Assembly (NCBI RefSeq): GCF_014202975.1
Contig: NZ_JACHHZ010000005.1
Coordinates: 62,001-126,000, forward strand
Source of the DNA: Povalibacter uvarum
Lineage (GTDB): Bacteria > Pseudomonadota > Gammaproteobacteria > Steroidobacterales > Steroidobacteraceae
Direction: 5' to 3'
DNA length: 64,000 nt
Position 1 is the stretch's first letter, and each line of letters begins with the position of its first letter. The notes under the pieces are model-generated. The model had not been told where the DNA came from, searched no databases, and saw only the letters and a list, made by a program, of their open reading frames with translations. This document shows positions 23,828-31,757 of the stretch, in pieces. The position numbers and the translations under genes were made by a program.

Positions 23828-25636
23828 TCAGGCCACCTGATTCCGCCCGGCCCGCTTCGCCCGATACAGCTGGATATCCGCTGTCTTCAGCAGCTCGGCG
23901 ACTTCGGCAGAGCCGTCCCACTGCGACAGGCCGATGCTGATCGTGACCGACAGCTCCTGGTGAACCGCATGCCAGTCGTGCGCTTCGACACGTTGGCGCA
24001 GGTTCTCGCAGAACTCCACGCCGGATTCGCGGGTGAGGCCGGGAAGAATGAGCGCGAACTCTTCCCCGCCGATGCGTGCGACCAGATCGTTCTCGCGACA
24101 AAGACGTTGCAGCAGTGCCGCGCTCTCGCGCAGCGCCAGGTCGCCGACGGCGTGACCGAGTTGATCGTTCACGATCTTGAAATGGTCGAGGTCGGCGACG
24201 GCGATGGTCAGCGGCTGACCCACCGCCAGCGCGACTTCCATCTCCGCCGCCAGCCGTTGACTGAACAGACGACGATTGGCGACGCCGGTGAGCGGATCTT
24301 CCTGCGTTTCGCGCTCGAGCCGGCTGCTGCGTTCGCGCAGCACCGCGATCAGGCGTTCCTTGTCCCAGTTGGCCTTCTCCAGGTCGGACGTGCGCTCGGC
24401 GACGCGTTCTTCCAGCCGCCGGCGATAGTCTTCGAGATCCTCGAACGCGCGGGCATCTCCAACAGCAGCGGCGACCTGTTCGGCGAGCTGGCGCATCAAG
24501 TGCAGGTCCGCATTCGAGTACACGCCGGGCTCAGTGTGCTGCACGCTCAGCAGGCCGATGACGATGCCGCTTTCGATCAGCGGCACGATGATCAGCGAGC
24601 CGGTCTCCTTCTCCGTCACTTCCGTACGTCGACGCAATCCCTCATCTGTCTGCGTCCAGTCCTCGATGAGCAAGGGTTCTGCACGTTCGGTCACCCAGCC
24701 GAAGAGCCCCGTGTCCATGGGCTTCGTTCGCCACGGCATGCGGGCCTCGCGCCGTTCATGAACCCGGATGTCCAGCTGGCGATGATCCCGATCGATCAGT
24801 ACGAAATAAAACTCATCGAACCGGAACAGCGCTCGCGTCTCGGCCAGAATGCGTTCTCCCAGCGCATCGATGCGGCGGGCACCGTGCAACGCGCGTCGTG
24901 CTTCGAACAATCGCAGCAGCGGCGCGCGATCCTTCTCGTCGCTCGGCGATTCGCCGCCGATGCTGTTCACGCTGAGCACGAACACCACCATGAGCACCGC
25001 GAAGAGAGCGAATGCCGCGTACTGCCCGGAGTTGTAGAGCACGGCGGCGAGAATGCCGGCCGGAACGAAGACGAAATCCGTCAGCACATAGACGGGCGTC
25101 ATGATGCGGCGTACATCGCGGCCGTCGAACTGGAAGAACAGAGCCATCAGTGCGAGGTTCACGACCTGCGCGACGATCGCCATGACGATCAATGGCCAGA
25201 TGTCGCCTGCGACCAGATCGGCCAGAGGATGCCTGCCGCCGGCAACCTGGTACGCATGCCCCGCTGCCAACAGCATGAGCGCAGTCATCGGTGCGTTGTG
25301 AAGCGAACGCAGTGCGGCGACCTTCATCGAGCCCTGGCTGTAGCCGCGATTCAACCAGGGCCACAACAACGAGGCGGTCGCGCAGATCGCAGCAGCAACG
25401 GATGGGCTGAGGACGAGGAGCAGGCCGATCTGCGGCACACGCTCCATCGAGATCAATCCGATGCGCGGCGCGCGCAGGCCGAACTGCCAGATGAAGAGGC
25501 ACACAGCGATGCAGAGCGCGATCGCCCACGCGGGCGGCAGTTCGTGTTCCGCAATCAATGCACGCGTCAACCAGGCGCCCGTCACTGCGGCCAGCAGGAG
25601 CGAATAGACGATCAGTGCGCGATAGCGCGACCCCAT
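23828..25636 (-). CDS. Membrane GAF-GGDEF diguanylate cyclase
   Basis: A 602-residue inner-membrane enzyme predicted to make c-di-GMP. About seven or eight hydrophobic helices occupy residues 8-230, a GAF domain about 265-395, a short coiled coil (YRRRLEERVAERTSDLEKAN) and a GGDEF domain about 440-600. The active site is RIGGEEFALILPG, and an RxxD inhibitory site (REND) lies five residues before GGEEF, so product inhibition is expected. DPLTGVANRRLF starts the catalytic domain. It is the last gene of the seven-gene stressosome cluster, 82 bases after the hybrid kinase, suggesting that the stressosome may feed c-di-GMP signalling. Confidence 0.93.
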   Translation of the reverse strand: MGSRYRALIVYSLLLAAVTGAWLTRALIAEHELPPAWAIALCIAVCLFIWQFGLRAPRIGLISMERVPQIGLLLVLSPSVAAAICATASLLWPWLNRGYSQGSMKVAALRSLHNAPMTALMLLAAGHAYQVAGGRHPLADLVAGDIWPLIVMAIVAQVVNLALMALFFQFDGRDVRRIMTPVYVLTDFVFVPAGILAAVLYNSGQYAAFALFAVLMVVFVLSVNSIGGESPSDEKDRAPLLRLFEARRALHGARRIDALGERILAETRALFRFDEFYFVLIDRDHRQLDIRVHERREARMPWRTKPMDTGLFGWVTERAEPLLIEDWTQTDEGLRRRTEVTEKETGSLIIVPLIESGIVIGLLSVQHTEPGVYSNADLHLMRQLAEQVAAAVGDARAFEDLEDYRRRLEERVAERTSDLEKANWDKERLIAVLRERSSRLERETQEDPLTGVANRRLFSQRLAAEMEVALAVGQPLTIAVADLDHFKIVNDQLGHAVGDLALRESAALLQRLCRENDLVARIGGEEFALILPGLTRESGVEFCENLRQRVEAHDWHAVHQELSVTISIGLSQWDGSAEVAELLKTADIQLYRAKRAGRNQVA

Positions 25637-25718
25637 GGTGCTTGTATACGCCTTAAGGGCGACGACGCCCAGATGGACTAAGACGTAGCCGTTCGCCGCC
25701 GGAGCTGCTCCGTGTCGC

Positions 25719-27338
25719 TCAGTCGCCGTCCAGCAGCGATCTCACCGCTGCCGCGAGCTCTGCCGGACGGAAAGGTTTTCGCAACAGCGGCGTGCTGCCC
25801 ACGGCGGATTCGAGCGCCGCAGTATCGGCATAGCCGCTGAAGAACAGTATGGGAATGTCCGGCATCCTGCGACGGATCTCGCGTGCCACATCGGCACCGT
25901 TGTTACCAGGCATGGCGAAGTCGGCCAGCACGAGATGGGGTGTTGCGCTGTCGAGCAATCTGAGCGCTTCGTCTCCATCGGCTGCGGCGAGGACGCGATA
26001 GCCGATCTCGCTGAGGAAATCCTCGACCAGTGCGCGCACGTCCGGATCGTCGTCGACGACCAGGATGGTTTCCGAATTGCGCTGGGCGGTAGCGACGTCT
26101 TCGGGTGCGACCTTCTGGGCCGTGTCGTGCGTAAGACGCAGAACGATGTTCACCGTCGTCCCGGACCCGCGCTCGCTTGCGATCCACGCGGTGCCGCCCG
26201 CTTGACGGGCAATTCCGTAAACCTGGGATAGACCGAGCCCAGTGCCCTTGCCGGCGGGCTTCGTCGTGAAGAAGGGATCGAAGGCTCGGGACACCACATC
26301 GGGTGTCATTCCCGATCCGTTGTCCTGGACAGCGATGTTCACGTACTCGCCGGGCGGCAGTTCGTTCAGCGCTTCGATCCGGATGCCCCGGGAAGCGATG
26401 ACTGTGATTCTGCCTTCGCCGCCACGCATTGCGTCGCGCGAGTTGATCGCAAGATTCAGGATGGCGAGCTCGAGTTGATTCGGGTCCGCGAGGACCTGCG
26501 GCAGATCCGGCTCGACCTCGACAGTGAGGGCCACGGTGGGCCCGAGCGACTGGCGCAGCAGGTCGGTCATGCCTTCGAACAGTTCCTGCAGATTGACCGG
26601 CTGCGTTGCCAGTTTCTGGGTCCGGGAGAAAGCCAGCAGCTGCGCCGTCAGCTTGGAACCGCGATCCGCCGCCCGGAACGCATGCTCCGCCAGTTGCACG
26701 AGCTTGGAATCCTTGGCGCGTGCGCGGATGCGGTCGAGATTGCCGACGACGGCGGTGAGAAGGTTGTTGAAGTCGTGCGCGATGCCGCCCGTCAGGTGAC
26801 CGATCGCTTCCATCTTCTGCGCCTGCACCAACGCCGCTTCGGCGCGCTTGCGCTGGCTGATTTCCTGGCGCAACTGTTCGTTCGCCGCCGCGAGATCGCG
26901 CGTGCGCTCGTCAACGCGCTGTTCCAGCGTCTCGTTCAATCGCCGCAGCTTGTCTTCGACCTCGCTGAGTCGCAACAGGGCGCGAACCGCCGCGACGAGT
27001 TCTCTCGGCTCGATGGGCTGGGTGAGGTAGCCGTCCGCTCCACCCTCGAGTCCGCGAGAACGATCGTCACCAGTCGTGAACGTCGCGGACGTTTGCAGCA
27101 CCATGATGCGGGGCCAGCGCCGCTTGAGGACGGCGCAGACCTCGAGGCCGCTGATGTCCGGTAATTTGATGTCCAGTACGACTACCGCGGGCTGCAACTC
27201 CTCTGCCTTGCGCAACGCGTCGTAACCGGTGGCGGCATCCGCGACGGTGAACCCCGCATGTCGCAGGCTGCGATTCTTCGTGTAACGCGCCGCTTCGTTG
27301 TCGTCGACATTCAGGATGAGGATCTCGCGCGCTGTCAC
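25719..27338 (-). CDS. Hybrid histidine kinase: receiver-HisKA-HATPase-receiver
   Basis: A 539-residue soluble phosphorelay protein. An N-terminal receiver (ILNVDDNEAARYTKNRSLRH, phospho-acceptor in VVVLDIKLPD), a coiled coil (about 125-165), HisKA with GGIAHDFNNLLTAVVGN, an HATPase (NLAINSRDAM, DNGSGM, GKGTGLGLSQVYGI) and a C-terminal receiver (ILVVDDDPDVRALVEDFLSE, acceptor in LVLADFAMPG). It has no membrane segment. Its start is two bases after the stop of the upstream RsbT-like/kinase gene, so it belongs to the same transcript. No dedicated output regulator is seen nearby. Confidence 0.93.
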   Translation of the reverse strand: MTAREILILNVDDNEAARYTKNRSLRHAGFTVADAATGYDALRKAEELQPAVVVLDIKLPDISGLEVCAVLKRRWPRIMVLQTSATFTTGDDRSRGLEGGADGYLTQPIEPRELVAAVRALLRLSEVEDKLRRLNETLEQRVDERTRDLAAANEQLRQEISQRKRAEAALVQAQKMEAIGHLTGGIAHDFNNLLTAVVGNLDRIRARAKDSKLVQLAEHAFRAADRGSKLTAQLLAFSRTQKLATQPVNLQELFEGMTDLLRQSLGPTVALTVEVEPDLPQVLADPNQLELAILNLAINSRDAMRGGEGRITVIASRGIRIEALNELPPGEYVNIAVQDNGSGMTPDVVSRAFDPFFTTKPAGKGTGLGLSQVYGIARQAGGTAWIASERGSGTTVNIVLRLTHDTAQKVAPEDVATAQRNSETILVVDDDPDVRALVEDFLSEIGYRVLAAADGDEALRLLDSATPHLVLADFAMPGNNGADVAREIRRRMPDIPILFFSGYADTAALESAVGSTPLLRKPFRPAELAAAVRSLLDGD

Positions 27339-27340
27339 GG

Positions 27341-29074
27341 CTATCCTCCTTCGCCCATCGCTGTGCGCAGCATCGACATGACACGATCGCGCGAAATCGA
27401 CTGCTTGTACAGAACGGGAATGCTCGCGGGCAGCTTCTCCCGCACCTGCGAGTCGAGCTGGAGCGATGTGCAGGCGATGATCGGGATGCGCTCGCGGAAG
27501 CTCCCCGGCAACTGTTCGATGACGGAGAATCCACTCACTCGCGGCATCTGCAGATCGAGAATGATCACGTCGGGCGGATCGTCGCGAATGATGCGCAGCG
27601 CCTGGTCGCCATCGACTGCCTCGGTGACTGCGTAGTGCGCGTCCTGCGCAATGATCTGCCGCAGCACATAACGGAATGTTTCGTCGTCATCGACCAGCAA
27701 CACCTTGCGGGCGCGCCGCTCCGTCACCGCGTTGTCGCGCGGAGCGAGCTCGATTGGCACGGAAAAATAGAACGTCGAACCGCGCCCGATCTCGCTGTCG
27801 ACCCAGACTTCACCACCGATCAGTTCAGCGAGCTTGCGCGACAGCGGCAATCCGAGGCCTGTGCCTTTCACCGCGCGCTGCAGCTGGCTGTCCACCTGGG
27901 TGAACTCCTCGAAGATGCGATCCCGGTCCTCGGCCGAGATGCCGATCCCGGTATCGGAGACGGCGAAGGTCATCGCCCTGGCGGCCGAATCGTAGTGCGC
28001 GGAGACGTGGATCTCGCCCTGCTCGGTGAACTTCAACGCATTGGAGATGAAGTTGCGCAGCACCTGCGTGACTTTGCTCTCATCCGTGTAGAGCCCGGGC
28101 AGTTCGGTCGCATTCTCGAAGATGAGCGCCACCGGCGTGCCTTCGCGCAGCGGCTTCAGCGCACCGCGCAACCCACCGAAAAGCTCGGCGACGGTGAATG
28201 CATCGGCCTTCACATCGATCTTGCCGGCCTCGACTTTGGCGAGATCCAGCAGGTCGTTGACCAGTTCCAGCAGATCTTCGGCCGAGCGGCGGATGTAGCC
28301 TATCTGTCGCGCCTGCTCATCGCTGAGATCGCCATCGACCCGATCCATCAACAGCCGGCTCAAGGCCATGATCGAGTTCAGCGGAGTGCGGAATTCGTGG
28401 CTCATGTTTGAGAGGAACCGCGACTTGATCTCGCTGGCCTGGCGCAACTGCTCGGCGCGGTCATCGAGCTCCGCGGTCAACGCCACGACACCACGGTTCG
28501 TGTCGCCGAGCTCCCGGTTGAGCTCAGTCGCCTCATCCTGCTTGCGCCGCAGCTCTTCGAGACTGTGGAGCAGCTCGGTGTTCTGCTCGCGCAGCGCCGC
28601 GAGGGGGTCTTCCGGCTTGGAGCGCTTGAGCTCAGTCAGCACGCTCTCCAGTTGCTCGCGCGTCACAGTCGTGCGGCGAGGCAGGTACTGAGTCAATTCG
28701 ACCCGTGTGCCTTCGCCGTCCGATTCGATCCGGAACTCATCCATCAGGCGACGAGCGCCCGTGATGCCGACGCCCATGCCTTCCACGGAGGTGTATCGGC
28801 CTTCTAGCACAGCGGCGAGATCGGCAACACCCGGTCCCCGATCCACGATCCGGATCACGAGCTTCTGGGGCGTCTGTTCGTGCAGCGAGAATTCGGCGCG
28901 GCCGCCGCGGCCATAGCTGAAGGCGTTGCGTGCAATCTCCGAGACGGCAGTAGCGATGCGCGTCTGCTCCTGGCGCACGAAACCCAGCAGCTCCGCAAGA
29001 TGTCGTGCGCGCTGACGGACGGCGACGATATCGGCCTCCATCTTGATGACCATGCTCACGATCGGCCAGGTCAT
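27341..29074 (-). CDS. RsbT-like ATPase fused to histidine kinase and receiver
   Basis: A 577-residue fusion. Residues about 10-135 form a GHKL ATPase of the RsbT/anti-sigma kinase type (ADIVAVRQRARHLAELLGF, SEIARNAFSYGRGGRAEF, VDRGPGVADL, GMGVGITGARRLMDEF). A coiled coil (150-230) leads to HisKA (FLSNMSHEFRTPLNSIM), HATPase (FISNALKFTEQGEI, VSDTGIGIS, GTGLGLPLSRKLAELIGG) and a receiver (VLLVDDDETFRYVL, acceptor in VIILDLQMPR). The ATG at 29074 overlaps the phosphatase stop as ATGA. The RsbT-like domain could be captured and released by the RsbR-RsbS complex, linking stress sensing directly to a phosphorelay; this is inference. Confidence 0.9.
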   Translation of the reverse strand: MTWPIVSMVIKMEADIVAVRQRARHLAELLGFVRQEQTRIATAVSEIARNAFSYGRGGRAEFSLHEQTPQKLVIRIVDRGPGVADLAAVLEGRYTSVEGMGVGITGARRLMDEFRIESDGEGTRVELTQYLPRRTTVTREQLESVLTELKRSKPEDPLAALREQNTELLHSLEELRRKQDEATELNRELGDTNRGVVALTAELDDRAEQLRQASEIKSRFLSNMSHEFRTPLNSIMALSRLLMDRVDGDLSDEQARQIGYIRRSAEDLLELVNDLLDLAKVEAGKIDVKADAFTVAELFGGLRGALKPLREGTPVALIFENATELPGLYTDESKVTQVLRNFISNALKFTEQGEIHVSAHYDSAARAMTFAVSDTGIGISAEDRDRIFEEFTQVDSQLQRAVKGTGLGLPLSRKLAELIGGEVWVDSEIGRGSTFYFSVPIELAPRDNAVTERRARKVLLVDDDETFRYVLRQIIAQDAHYAVTEAVDGDQALRIIRDDPPDVIILDLQMPRVSGFSVIEQLPGSFRERIPIIACTSLQLDSQVREKLPASIPVLYKQSISRDRVMSMLRTAMGEGG

Positions 29075-30084
29075 GGGCGACGCCCCATATCCGCAACGAG
29101 CACGGTTGTATCGTCGCGGCCGCGTGAGTAATCGCGATAGAGAATGGCGGCTATCAATGTCGGATGCATGCGCAGGATGCCGGGATAGCGGTCCAGCGAC
29201 CAACCCGTTCCCAGTCCGTCCGAATGCATGATCACGAGACCACCCGCGCTATACGGATAGTCGAATGACTGAATGCGCCGCGCCACATGACCCGCGGTGC
29301 CGTTGTGGGAAATCATCCGCCGCGTTTCCTGCTGACCGACGATGACTCCGGCGATATTGCCGATTCCGCCATACACGATGCTTGCTTTTCCGAACTCGAA
29401 GCGCGCAACAGCCACGGCAGCGCCTCGTGTTGCCCGCAACCCCGCGTGCAGGAATTCCAGGATCTGCGTGACCGGTGCATGGCGGTGGCGCGCAAAAAGT
29501 CTCATGGCTTCCATCGCTGCCGCGGCCGCTTGTGGGCCATGACCAAGGCCATCCGCCACGAGCAGCGTCCGGCCGTTCGCATCATCGACGCACTGAGCAG
29601 CATCGCCGCAGACCTCCTCGCCCGTCATCGGAACGCAAACGAAACCGTGAGCCGGGGCAGAAGCGGCGTTCGCAGCCGGCTTCTGCTTCTGAGCCAGTGA
29701 AATGCGTGCGAGCAGCGCCGTGCCGACGCCGGGCCAGCTCGCTACCTGCATGAAGCTCGATTGCCGCTGCACCGCGCCAAGGCCCGCGCCCGCGCTTCCA
29801 CCCGCAGTCGAGTAACCGTCGCGCATGCACTCCTGAAGATTCGCGATGCCACGGCCTCGGTCCAGTGCGATGCATTGAATGCCATGTCCACTGCCATCCT
29901 CGTAGCTGCTGACGAGCAGTTGCCCGCCTCCGCCATGCTTGACCAGGTTGGACGCGAGTTCCGTCGCAACGATCGCGGCGCGGCCCGCTATGGTCTCGTC
30001 GGCACCCAGAGTGCCTGCCAGCTCTGAAGCCCGCCGGCGGGCCTCAGAAACCTGGCTCGCCTCGGTGACTGCAACAGCGCGCAT
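29071..30084 (-). CDS. ATPase + SpoIIE (PP2C) phosphatase, RsbX-like
   Basis: A 337-residue protein. The N-terminal half is an RsbT/RsbW-type GHKL ATPase (AIVATELASNLVKHGGGGQL, LDRGRGIANLQECMRDGY). The C-terminal half is a SpoIIE/PP2C phosphatase (LLVADGLGHGPQAAAAAMEA, IMHSDGLGTGW, RGRDDTTVLVADMG), with metal-binding Asp-Gly pairs intact. In stressosome modules RsbX resets the system by dephosphorylating RsbR and RsbS, and this gene sits in that position. The added ATPase half is not part of Bacillus RsbX. Three bases separate it from rsbT; its stop overlaps the next start. Confidence 0.88.
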   Translation of the reverse strand: MRAVAVTEASQVSEARRRASELAGTLGADETIAGRAAIVATELASNLVKHGGGGQLLVSSYEDGSGHGIQCIALDRGRGIANLQECMRDGYSTAGGSAGAGLGAVQRQSSFMQVASWPGVGTALLARISLAQKQKPAANAASAPAHGFVCVPMTGEEVCGDAAQCVDDANGRTLLVADGLGHGPQAAAAAMEAMRLFARHRHAPVTQILEFLHAGLRATRGAAVAVARFEFGKASIVYGGIGNIAGVIVGQQETRRMISHNGTAGHVARRIQSFDYPYSAGGLVIMHSDGLGTGWSLDRYPGILRMHPTLIAAILYRDYSRGRDDTTVLVADMGRRP

Positions 30085-30087
30085 GAG

Positions 30088-30498
30088 CTACTTCCAGCGC
30101 GCGATGGTGATGCGAGTACCGACTCCGACAGTGGATTCGATCGCGAACTCGTTGCACAGTCGCTTGGCACCGCCGAGCCCAAGTCCAAGCCCGTTACCCG
30201 TCGTGTAGCCGTCGCGCAATGCCTGCTGGATATCGGCAATACCCGGGCCCTTGTCATCGAACACCAGCCGGATGCCACGGCGCAGCCCGTCGTTCACCAT
30301 GGTCATGGCCATGGTTCCGCCACCGCCGTAGTCGAGCGTATTGCGGGCCAGTTCGCTCGCTGCAGTGATGATCTTCGTCTGATCGACGAGGCCGAGTCCG
30401 GCTTCCGCTGCTCTGGCCCGTACCTGCTGGCGAATCAGGACGACGTCATCCGAGCTTCGGATCTGGAGCACTGTCGAATCAGCCGGCGCTGGCGCCAT
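30088..30498 (-). CDS. rsbT: RsbT-type serine/threonine kinase (stressosome)
   Basis: A 136-residue GHKL kinase. VVLIRQQVRARAAEAGLGL leads to TAASELARNTLDYGGGGTM (N box), VFDDKGPGIADI (G1 box) and GNGLGLGLGGAKRLCNEF (G2 box), closely following Bacillus RsbT. In the model system RsbT phosphorylates RsbS and RsbR and is released to activate a partner. The ATG at 30498 lies inside the rsbS tail (20-base overlap), so the two are tightly coupled. No RsbU follows; RsbT-like kinase fusions and a cyclase do. Confidence 0.92.
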   Translation of the reverse strand: MAPAPADSTVLQIRSSDDVVLIRQQVRARAAEAGLGLVDQTKIITAASELARNTLDYGGGGTMAMTMVNDGLRRGIRLVFDDKGPGIADIQQALRDGYTTGNGLGLGLGGAKRLCNEFAIESTVGVGTRITIARWK

Positions 30499-30868
30499 CT
30501 TCCTGCTCCGGCTGGTCATCACGCTGACGCAGCAGCGCCATGCCGCGCTCGACGTTGAGTGCCGTCTTGACACCGGCAAGAGACAGGCCCAGCTCCACGA
30601 GTGTGATGGCGACAGCAGGCCGCATGCCGACGACGACCGTCTCGGCATCGAGCACGCGTGATACGGCTGCAATGGTGTCGAGCGTGCGTCCAATGAAGCT
30701 GTCGACGATCTCCAGGGCCGAGATGTCGATGAGCACGCCATGAGCGCCGTGTTTGACGATCTGATTGGTCAGATCGTCCTCGAGCGCGGTGGCGAGGCGA
30801 TCGTGCATATCGACCTGGATCGTCACAAGCAGGGCGCGCCCCAGCTTGAGGATGGGTATTCTGTCCAT
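30479..30868 (-). CDS. rsbS: RsbS-type STAS protein (stressosome scaffold)
   Basis: A 129-residue single STAS domain protein. IPILKLGRALLVTIQVDMHD and VLIDISALEIVDSFIGRTLD align with Bacillus RsbS, and Ser57 in VDSF matches the serine phosphorylated by RsbT (Ser59 there). GMRPAVAITLVELGL is also family-typical. The tail after residue 115 is acidic and Gln-rich. It starts seven bases after the RsbR gene and overlaps rsbT. Confidence 0.93.
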   Translation of the reverse strand: MDRIPILKLGRALLVTIQVDMHDRLATALEDDLTNQIVKHGAHGVLIDISALEIVDSFIGRTLDTIAAVSRVLDAETVVVGMRPAVAITLVELGLSLAGVKTALNVERGMALLRQRDDQPEQEDGASAG

Positions 30869-30875
30869 GGCCGGC

Positions 30876-31757
30876 TCAGCCCGCGGCCTTGGAATCGGCG
30901 GCTTGTGGGGTCTTGGCGGTGACGACCGTCTTGTTCAGTCGTTTCAGCGCCAACGCGAATGCATCGGCCAGGGTGGCTTTGGAAATGACATTCAATTCGA
31001 CGCCCAGGTGCACCATCGTCTGAGCGATCTGCGGGCGAATGCCGCTGATGATGCAGTCAGCCCCCATGAGTCGGGCCGCCGCGATCGTCTTGAGCAGGTG
31101 CTGTGCGGTCAGGGTATCGACCGTCGGGACGCCAGTGATGTCGATGATGGCGAAGTCCGCGCCGCTGTCGACGATGGACTGGAGAAGGTTCTCCATGACG
31201 ACCTGCGTGCGCTCGCTGTCGAGCGTGCCGATCAGCGGCAATGCCAGGATGCCGTCCCAGAGTTTCACGACGGGCGTCGACAGCTCCGCGATTTCTCGCT
31301 GCTGCCGGACGATCACTTCCTCGCGGCTGCGTTGGTAGACGTCCATCGTGTGCAAGCCCAGCTCATCCAGCATGGTGCTCGCTTCCCAGGTTGCTTGGGC
31401 AAGCTGTTCCGCACTGAAGTCCTTACGGCGGGCAACCGCTGCAAACAAGGCCTGCTTCAAGGAAAAGACGAAGAGGGCCGTCTCGCGGGGCGAGTATCCC
31501 TGGATGGCGCGGGATCGGCTGATATCGGCAAGGAGTTCGCGAAGCGGTTCAAAGGCCGCGCCGGTGACATCGCTGCTCTCGCCCAGGGTGCGCTTGAGAA
31601 TGCTCAGGAAATCACGGCCCTGTGTCTGGAGTTCGGCCGCATTGATGCGACCGCCCTGGTCGGCGCCGGCCTGCCGCAGCCGCTGCATCCATTCGTCGAG
31701 AATGACCGCTTCATTGTCGCTGACGGTCTGCGAAAGCAGGGTGTTGGCGCGTGCCAT
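30876..31757 (-). CDS. rsbR: RsbR-type stressosome sensor (RsbRD-like N-domain + STAS)
   Basis: A 293-residue protein with an all-helical N-terminal region (about 1-150, NEAVILDEWMQRLRQAGA...) like the RsbRD_N sensor type rather than a globin fold, then a STAS domain (about 160-280). The STAS contains DITGVPTVDTLTAQHLLKTI and GIRPQIAQTMVHLGV, including threonines at 208, 215 and 247 in the regions phosphorylated in Bacillus RsbR proteins. It is the first gene of the cluster; GGGAG nine bases before the ATG is its ribosome-binding site. The sensed signal is unknown. Confidence 0.92.
   Translation of the reverse strand: MARANTLLSQTVSDNEAVILDEWMQRLRQAGADQGGRINAAELQTQGRDFLSILKRTLGESSDVTGAAFEPLRELLADISRSRAIQGYSPRETALFVFSLKQALFAAVARRKDFSAEQLAQATWEASTMLDELGLHTMDVYQRSREEVIVRQQREIAELSTPVVKLWDGILALPLIGTLDSERTQVVMENLLQSIVDSGADFAIIDITGVPTVDTLTAQHLLKTIAAARLMGADCIISGIRPQIAQTMVHLGVELNVISKATLADAFALALKRLNKTVVTAKTPQAADSKAAG

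Follow-up and report, generated by a model that had tools for sequence, protein, structure and literature searches.

On balance, six consecutive genes of Povalibacter uvarum are rather likely to make up a stressosome module that works without a sigma factor and has a phosphorelay of its own as output. The genes lie in a 64-kb window, the whole stretch of DNA analysed in this work. RsbR, RsbS and RsbT, the components of the core, are followed by TX, an RsbX-like PP2C/SpoIIE phosphatase carrying an RsbT-like ATPase domain, by TK, a histidine kinase carrying another domain of this type, and by a hybrid kinase. The gene arrangement suggests how stress could be relayed without the usual sigma factor.

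Organization of the locus

Seven open frames are found on the minus strand between positions 31757 and 23828 of the window. Translation and domain scanning confirmed all of them, with the domain types assigned in the first-pass annotation. RsbR (30876..31757) includes RsbRD_N, a globin-fold sensor domain, and a STAS domain, with predicted phosphosites at Ser181 and Thr215. The RsbS scaffold protein (30479..30868) is a STAS domain with a predicted phosphosite at Ser57. The free switch kinase RsbT (135 aa, 30088..30495) was read from the ATG at 30495, whereas the frame as listed begins further upstream, at 30741. TX spans 29071..30084, and its composition was established by domain scan and profiles. 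TK (577 aa, 27341..29074) comprises the RsbT-like ATPase domain, a predicted long helix, HisKA (His226), HATPase_c and REC. Its start was set to the ATG at 29074, where an ATGA overlaps the TX stop, and aligning 17 TK N-termini yields the consensus MxWPI at the same place. The sixth gene (25719..27338) encodes, according to the domain scan, a hybrid kinase of REC-HisKA-HATPase_c-REC type, and is part of the conserved unit. The seventh (23828..25636) encodes a GAF-GGDEF diguanylate cyclase, a neighbour which probably stands outside the unit.

With starts at 30495 for RsbT and 29074 for TK, the first five junctions range from -17 to +7 nt, and the sixth, before the cyclase, measures +82 nt. Of the seven-gene unit initially proposed, six genes are conserved in relatives, and the cyclase lies off-module in three of them. 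The conserved unit is therefore probably made of six genes, from RsbR through the REC-HisKA-HATPase_c-REC kinase. A scan for expression signals gave 1 promoter-like site, versus 1.6 in shuffled sequences, and 9 terminator-like sites, versus 5.8, an uninformative contrast.

The stressosome core

RsbR matches the RsbR chains of solved stressosomes (best E 7e-32). Ser181 and Thr215 are invariant in 66/66 aligned relatives, which are those proteins of the 80 loci described below that fell within length limits; the first of the two phosphosites is a Ser here versus a Thr in the best solved chain. In Foldseek searches the model of RsbR (mean pLDDT 92, 41 sequences) matched best the Listeria innocua chain 7b0u, and 3zta and E. 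coli DosC globin domains were among the matches listed. The globin matches plausibly cover the N-terminal part of the modelled protein. RsbR was also considered as a haem sensor. This was rejected for lack of a conserved His column in the N-terminal domain, the best one reaching 14/41 sequences.

RsbS matches solved RsbS chains, including those from B. subtilis (6jhk), Listeria (6qcm) and Moorella (3zxn), at E values from 2e-28 to 1e-22, and more weakly the Vibrio RsbS chain 7o0i (2e-9). Ser57, named early as a residue to test for phosphorylation, is correctly placed, as it aligns with the Ser of the solved RsbS chains and is kept in 61/61 aligned relatives, again proteins of the 80 loci within length limits. 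RsbT is 45% identical to Listeria RsbT, and profile scores place the core kinase in the RsbT, not in the RsbW type. The sequence hallmarks of a stressosome core are thus present, RsbR joining a sensor to a STAS domain with two phosphosites, and RsbS being a lone STAS domain with a phosphorylatable Ser. Judging from their sequences, RsbR and RsbS would form a scaffold complex.

No sigma-B route was found to accompany the core. The first-pass annotation had reported neither RsbU nor sigma-B genes, and this applies to the genome at large: a search of the whole genome (98% complete) gave no match to RsbU_N, and none to SigBFG over the cut-off, with 14 weaker sigma matches. Both components expected of a sigma-B operon, an RsbU_N protein and a SigB-type sigma factor, were therefore not found. 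No cognate DNA-binding regulator is encoded within the module, which weighs against the output proposed below. The genome hosts three SpoIIE-domain proteins, one of which is TX, and one free RsbT was found. Elsewhere (G000:C7:265625-266983), a STAS gene lies beside an 817-aa SpoIIE + HATPase frame, and is a separate partner-switch candidate.

RsbT-family domains in three consecutive genes

RsbT, TX and TK, encoded by consecutive genes, all carry RsbT-family domains. Class profiles were built from 80 T, 82 TX and 67 TK domains. Listeria RsbT scored 128.7 bits with the T, 115.7 with the TK and 89.8 with the TX profile; the corresponding scores of Listeria RsbW were 3.3, 20.6 and 16.6 bits. The profile of the TX phosphatase gave 90.7 bits with Listeria RsbX versus 10.9 with RsbU. 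Because of these scores, TX is regarded as an RsbT-RsbX fusion and TK as an RsbT-histidine-kinase fusion, and all three T domains are assigned, as far as profiles tell, to the RsbT family rather than to RsbW-like proteins. TX had been recorded as a phosphatase in RsbX position. Its RsbX-like nature stands, but the protein is not a plain RsbX, and its N-terminal RsbT-like domain had been overlooked. In turn, the RsbT-kinase fusion noted at the time does exist, but belongs to a set of three paralogous RsbT classes rather than being a lone oddity.

Residues of functional weight are maintained in all classes. We take SpoIIAB Arg20, Glu46 and Asn50 to act in STAS binding, as catalytic base and in metal binding, respectively. 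The Arg20 and Glu46 positions are kept in 82/83 T (one gap each), 82/82 TX and 69/69 TK domains, the Asn50 position in 83/83, 82/82 and 66/69; three of the 83 T rows (L090, L091, L116) are probably TK pieces. These counts cover T matches of 60 bits or more and leave out 12 of the 13 stretches of one other set, most from genomes already among the 80 loci; as a result, G008, G019 and G039 are not represented. The G2-box Gly107 is found in 59/69 TK domains and the TK lid is variable, hence this T domain may no longer be active as a kinase. TK is most RsbT-like in helices 1-2, the part including Arg20, where the TK-T figure is 44.7% (65 same-locus pairs) and the T-TX figure 26.6% (80 pairs). A quick tree, which took in 104 of the 234 rows and 34 loci, places each class on one side of a branch, with support of 98 for TK, 99 for TX and a weak 61 for free T; the tree rests on few columns, and the program warns of long branches meeting.

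In the model of TK (single chain, pLDDT 87, pTM 0.45) a single predicted helix of 87 residues (157-243) starts behind the T domain and reaches into HisKA. Foldseek matches listed for the model were headed by histidine kinases, with nothing on the T domain. Neither the domain scan nor the model revealed a sensor domain in TK beyond the T domain.

Conservation of gene order

A nine-sequence TX alignment was searched, via one peptide pattern, against one genome per species in 84,980 species. The scan yielded 550 TX relatives, and the best 80 were kept; being the best matches to a Steroidobacteraceae alignment through one pattern, these 80 loci are a biased set. Gene order, indicated earlier as a point to be checked across genomes, is conserved. 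The frame right after TX encodes a T domain and a kinase part in 70/80 loci from 12 phyla, though phyla other than Pseudomonadota, Cyanobacteriota and Bacillota rest on records titled metagenome bins. A further three loci show a T frame without the kinase part, in two cases where the contig ends. Of the remaining seven, five have a kinase lacking the T domain, one is interrupted by the contig edge, and one has a GGDEF gene instead. Given that the T-kinase adjoins TX in 70 of the 80 loci, the TX-TK arrangement is far beyond chance. Upstream of TX, two STAS genes are found in 73/80 and a T gene in 76/80 loci; nine loci fall short of the STAS pair or of the T gene, and in six of these TX is less than 1 kb from the contig start. 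The title of one record (L096), a metagenome bin, names Klebsiella pneumoniae, in which the module would not be expected, and the label may be wrong.

Gene order, the fusions, domain family membership and the conserved catalytic and phosphorylation sites can all be read directly from the sequences. In the genus of P. uvarum, TX matches were obtained in 10/14 genomes and none in the other four, and a T-bearing kinase follows TX in all nine other matching genomes. In G022, of the same family, the kinase shows no T domain; a T trace of 14 bits only is seen in G039, and no T-bearing kinase was seen in the G019 stretch. The closest module (G004) shows 59-84% identity over six proteins, and the ortholog of the sixth protein, 70% identical, occupies the same place in this closest relative.

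An even draw of 398 Pseudomonadota genomes was also analysed. The TX alignment (E<=1e-25, up to five candidates scored per genome) matched 37 genomes, and an alignment of TK N-termini (E<=1e-15, up to seven candidates scored per genome) matched 41, mostly through RsbT or TX. Only matches continuing into the linker, and not corresponding to TX, were counted as TK. Eleven copies were obtained, within the seven candidates scored per genome, in 10/398 genomes, P. uvarum included, and 11/11 sit beside stressosome genes. The link of the stressosome core to a phosphorelay proposed in the first-pass annotation is thus supported, the gene order being widely conserved. Ten of the 11 copies abut TX. The remaining one (L254:7018-9521) is the second T-kinase of G353; it stands alone and points away from an additional RsbR gene. 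The G174 copy of TK has a kinase half that is scarcely detected.

Stretches from other matching genomes, 36 in number, are more heterogeneous. TK follows the phosphatase in nine of them (L191 via the TK alignment match only), a kinase with no detected T domain in 12, and a GGDEF gene in 10, nine of which come from one family. The second lineage having a GGDEF gene directly after the phosphatase includes L204, L208, L209, L211-L214, L219, L222 and L223. In L219, L222 and L223 the RsbT-phosphatase fusion comes right after RsbS, leaving no space for a free RsbT. In L210:7752-9231 and L212:5723-7212, two RsbT-like genes stand unfused ahead of an RsbX-like gene that is on its own too, a layout as expected, from the sequences, of a pre-fusion stage.

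The module may reside on plasmids. In Deinococcus radiodurans R1 all six are located on plasmid MP1, with DR_RS15570/15575 as the RsbR and RsbS genes; a Sphingomonas plasmid carries five of the six. The D. radiodurans module (L256:5134-10938, NC_000958.1) is located near several transposases and a ParB gene.

Proposed mechanism

We infer assembly of the complex, docking through the fused domains and direction of the signal as follows. RsbR, which has a globin fold but no conserved haem His, and RsbS would build the scaffold. Free RsbT would phosphorylate Ser57 of RsbS and Ser181 and Thr215 of RsbR. TX would strip these phosphates, its RsbT-like domain serving to dock the phosphatase on the scaffold. 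The RsbT-like domain of TK would be either held or let go by the scaffold, depending on phosphorylation, and no RsbU-like relay would be needed. The long helix would convey the state of the T domain to HisKA (His226), and the signal would move on to the REC domain of TK and to those in the sixth protein, the output being a His-Asp phosphorelay. In a bolder version, offered tentatively, the six genes would be an ancient hub in which free RsbT, TX and TK compete for one stressosome surface. TK, one polypeptide uniting a catalytic domain of Ser/Thr-kinase type with that of a His-kinase, would there convert Ser/Thr partner switching straight into a His-Asp phosphorelay, and neither a sigma factor nor an RsbU-like relay would take part.

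The signal could in principle flow in the reverse direction. The T domain of TK would then be a Ser/Thr kinase phosphorylating RsbS and RsbR upon stimulation of the histidine kinase half, and the two-component side would feed the stressosome. The retention of the Glu46 (69/69) and Asn50 (66/69) positions in TK speaks for such a role, as does L124, where a T-kinase directly follows RsbR-RsbS and occupies the slot of RsbT. Against it, TK has no sensor domain other than T, besides having a variable Gly107 and lid. We regard reverse flow as rather unlikely.

Equally unlikely, in our opinion, is that the fused T domains are relics, involved only in dimerisation or nucleotide sensing, and that signalling is still left wholly to free RsbT, which might bind the kinase helix. 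Kinases devoid of a detectable T domain, which follow the phosphatase in 5/80 loci and in 12/36 Pseudomonadota stretches, fit this idea and weigh against the role assigned above to TK; because of them, the T-kinase fusion is not needed everywhere. The variable Gly107 and lid of TK and the four genomes of the genus with no TX match also weigh against the role assigned to TK. Against the relic idea, TK keeps Arg20, Glu46 and the RsbT-like positions of helices 1-2 across 12 phyla. The reading in which the scaffold controls TK through its T domain is preferred.

The diguanylate cyclase

The cyclase encoded downstream of the module has GGEEF and RxxD motifs, and its N-terminal third looks hydrophobic by eye. 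The domain scan identified neither REC nor RsbU_N in the protein, which thus offers no known handle to a phosphorelay or to RsbT. Among 40 relatives searched, orthologs (E<=1e-40) were found, in addition to the P. uvarum gene, in G006, G007 and G012, with 61-70% identity. In all three, the gene is on a contig other than that of the module, in stretches matching no other gene of the window; these assemblies are fragmented, and long-range linkage of cyclase and module is possible there. G004, which has the closest module, has no ortholog at E<=1e-40 among the 32 of 49 candidates scored, nor does one lie next to the module. Of the 80 loci, three have a GGDEF gene on the same strand less than 6.5 kb downstream, and four have one upstream. 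The upstream ones, in L106, L108, L121 and L123 (Steroidobacter/Peristeroidobacter), precede RsbR, and a copy of this gene (L042 217-1791) appears by eye to have an EAL part as well.

These data bear on the first-pass annotation, which had wired the stressosome to c-di-GMP through this cyclase. According to that view, both the kinases and the cyclase are targets of free RsbT, and stress is read out as c-di-GMP by a seven-gene operon. Stressosome-cyclase links are indeed known from Moorella, as far as the accessible parts of the sources tell (PMC4976288, PMC7647112, PMC12143880), the GGDEF genes found directly after the phosphatase in 10/36 Pseudomonadota stretches point the same way, and the gap to the cyclase is just 82 nt, with no terminator-like site listed there on the minus strand by the scan. 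Co-transcription of cyclase and module in P. uvarum is therefore possible. The off-module position of the gene in relatives, its absence in G004 within the limits given, the lack of REC and RsbU_N and the rarity of downstream GGDEF genes make c-di-GMP output the least likely of the alternatives, and the seven-gene operon was rejected as main reading.

Comparison with known systems

The module is best compared with the RSTX modules of Vibrio vulnificus. In the accessible text of PMC9237108, which surveys globin-coupled RsbR, RSTX modules have a single-domain RsbX and eleven downstream types, including phosphorelays and c-di-GMP enzymes; RsbT is proposed to phosphorylate the downstream kinase, and failure to show the interaction is told. 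As in V. vulnificus (RSTX with VvD1/VvD2; PMC9237108 and PMC10014275, in their accessible parts), the order is RsbR-RsbS-RsbT-RsbX, two-component genes come right behind, sigma-B is missing and RsbR has a globin fold. In contrast to V. vulnificus, where according to the same texts RsbX is a single-domain PP2C and the signal is proposed to reach VvD1 via RsbT, both the RsbX counterpart and the kinase carry an RsbT-like domain here, and RsbR lacks a conserved haem His. The P. uvarum locus thus has the downstream two-component genes of a Vibrio-type RSTX module, and not its single-domain phosphatase.

Moorella thermoacetica shares with P. uvarum a stressosome core having a diguanylate cyclase, MtG, as output candidate (accessible parts of PMC7647112 and PMC12143880). 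MtG, however, bears an RsbU N-terminal domain, in contrast to the cyclase described here and to the whole P. uvarum genome, and linkage of the cyclase to the module is not conserved in relatives. Histidine kinases with an RsbU N-terminal domain are known from stressosome operons, and a coiled-coil linker is thought to carry the signal in them (PMC12143880, accessible part). Output by a histidine kinase is common to both systems, but in those operons a separate RsbT binds the kinase, while in TK the RsbT-like domain is built in. The sigma-B operon of Listeria has counterparts of RsbR, RsbS, RsbT and RsbX. Unlike Listeria, P. uvarum has neither RsbU nor sigma-B next to the module, nor an RsbV/RsbW partner set, and the RsbX counterpart is fused.

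No earlier description of RsbT fusions was found in the accessible parts of the literature searched, and subscription papers may hold one. The fusions address the question of stressosome output where sigma-B is missing, as the switch domain is covalently part of both kinase and phosphatase, in an order common to a dozen phyla. They turn the question into a simple test of binding and autophosphorylation, feasible also in Deinococcus radiodurans. Stressosomes with two-component output are known; the double RsbT fusion and its conservation set this variant apart.
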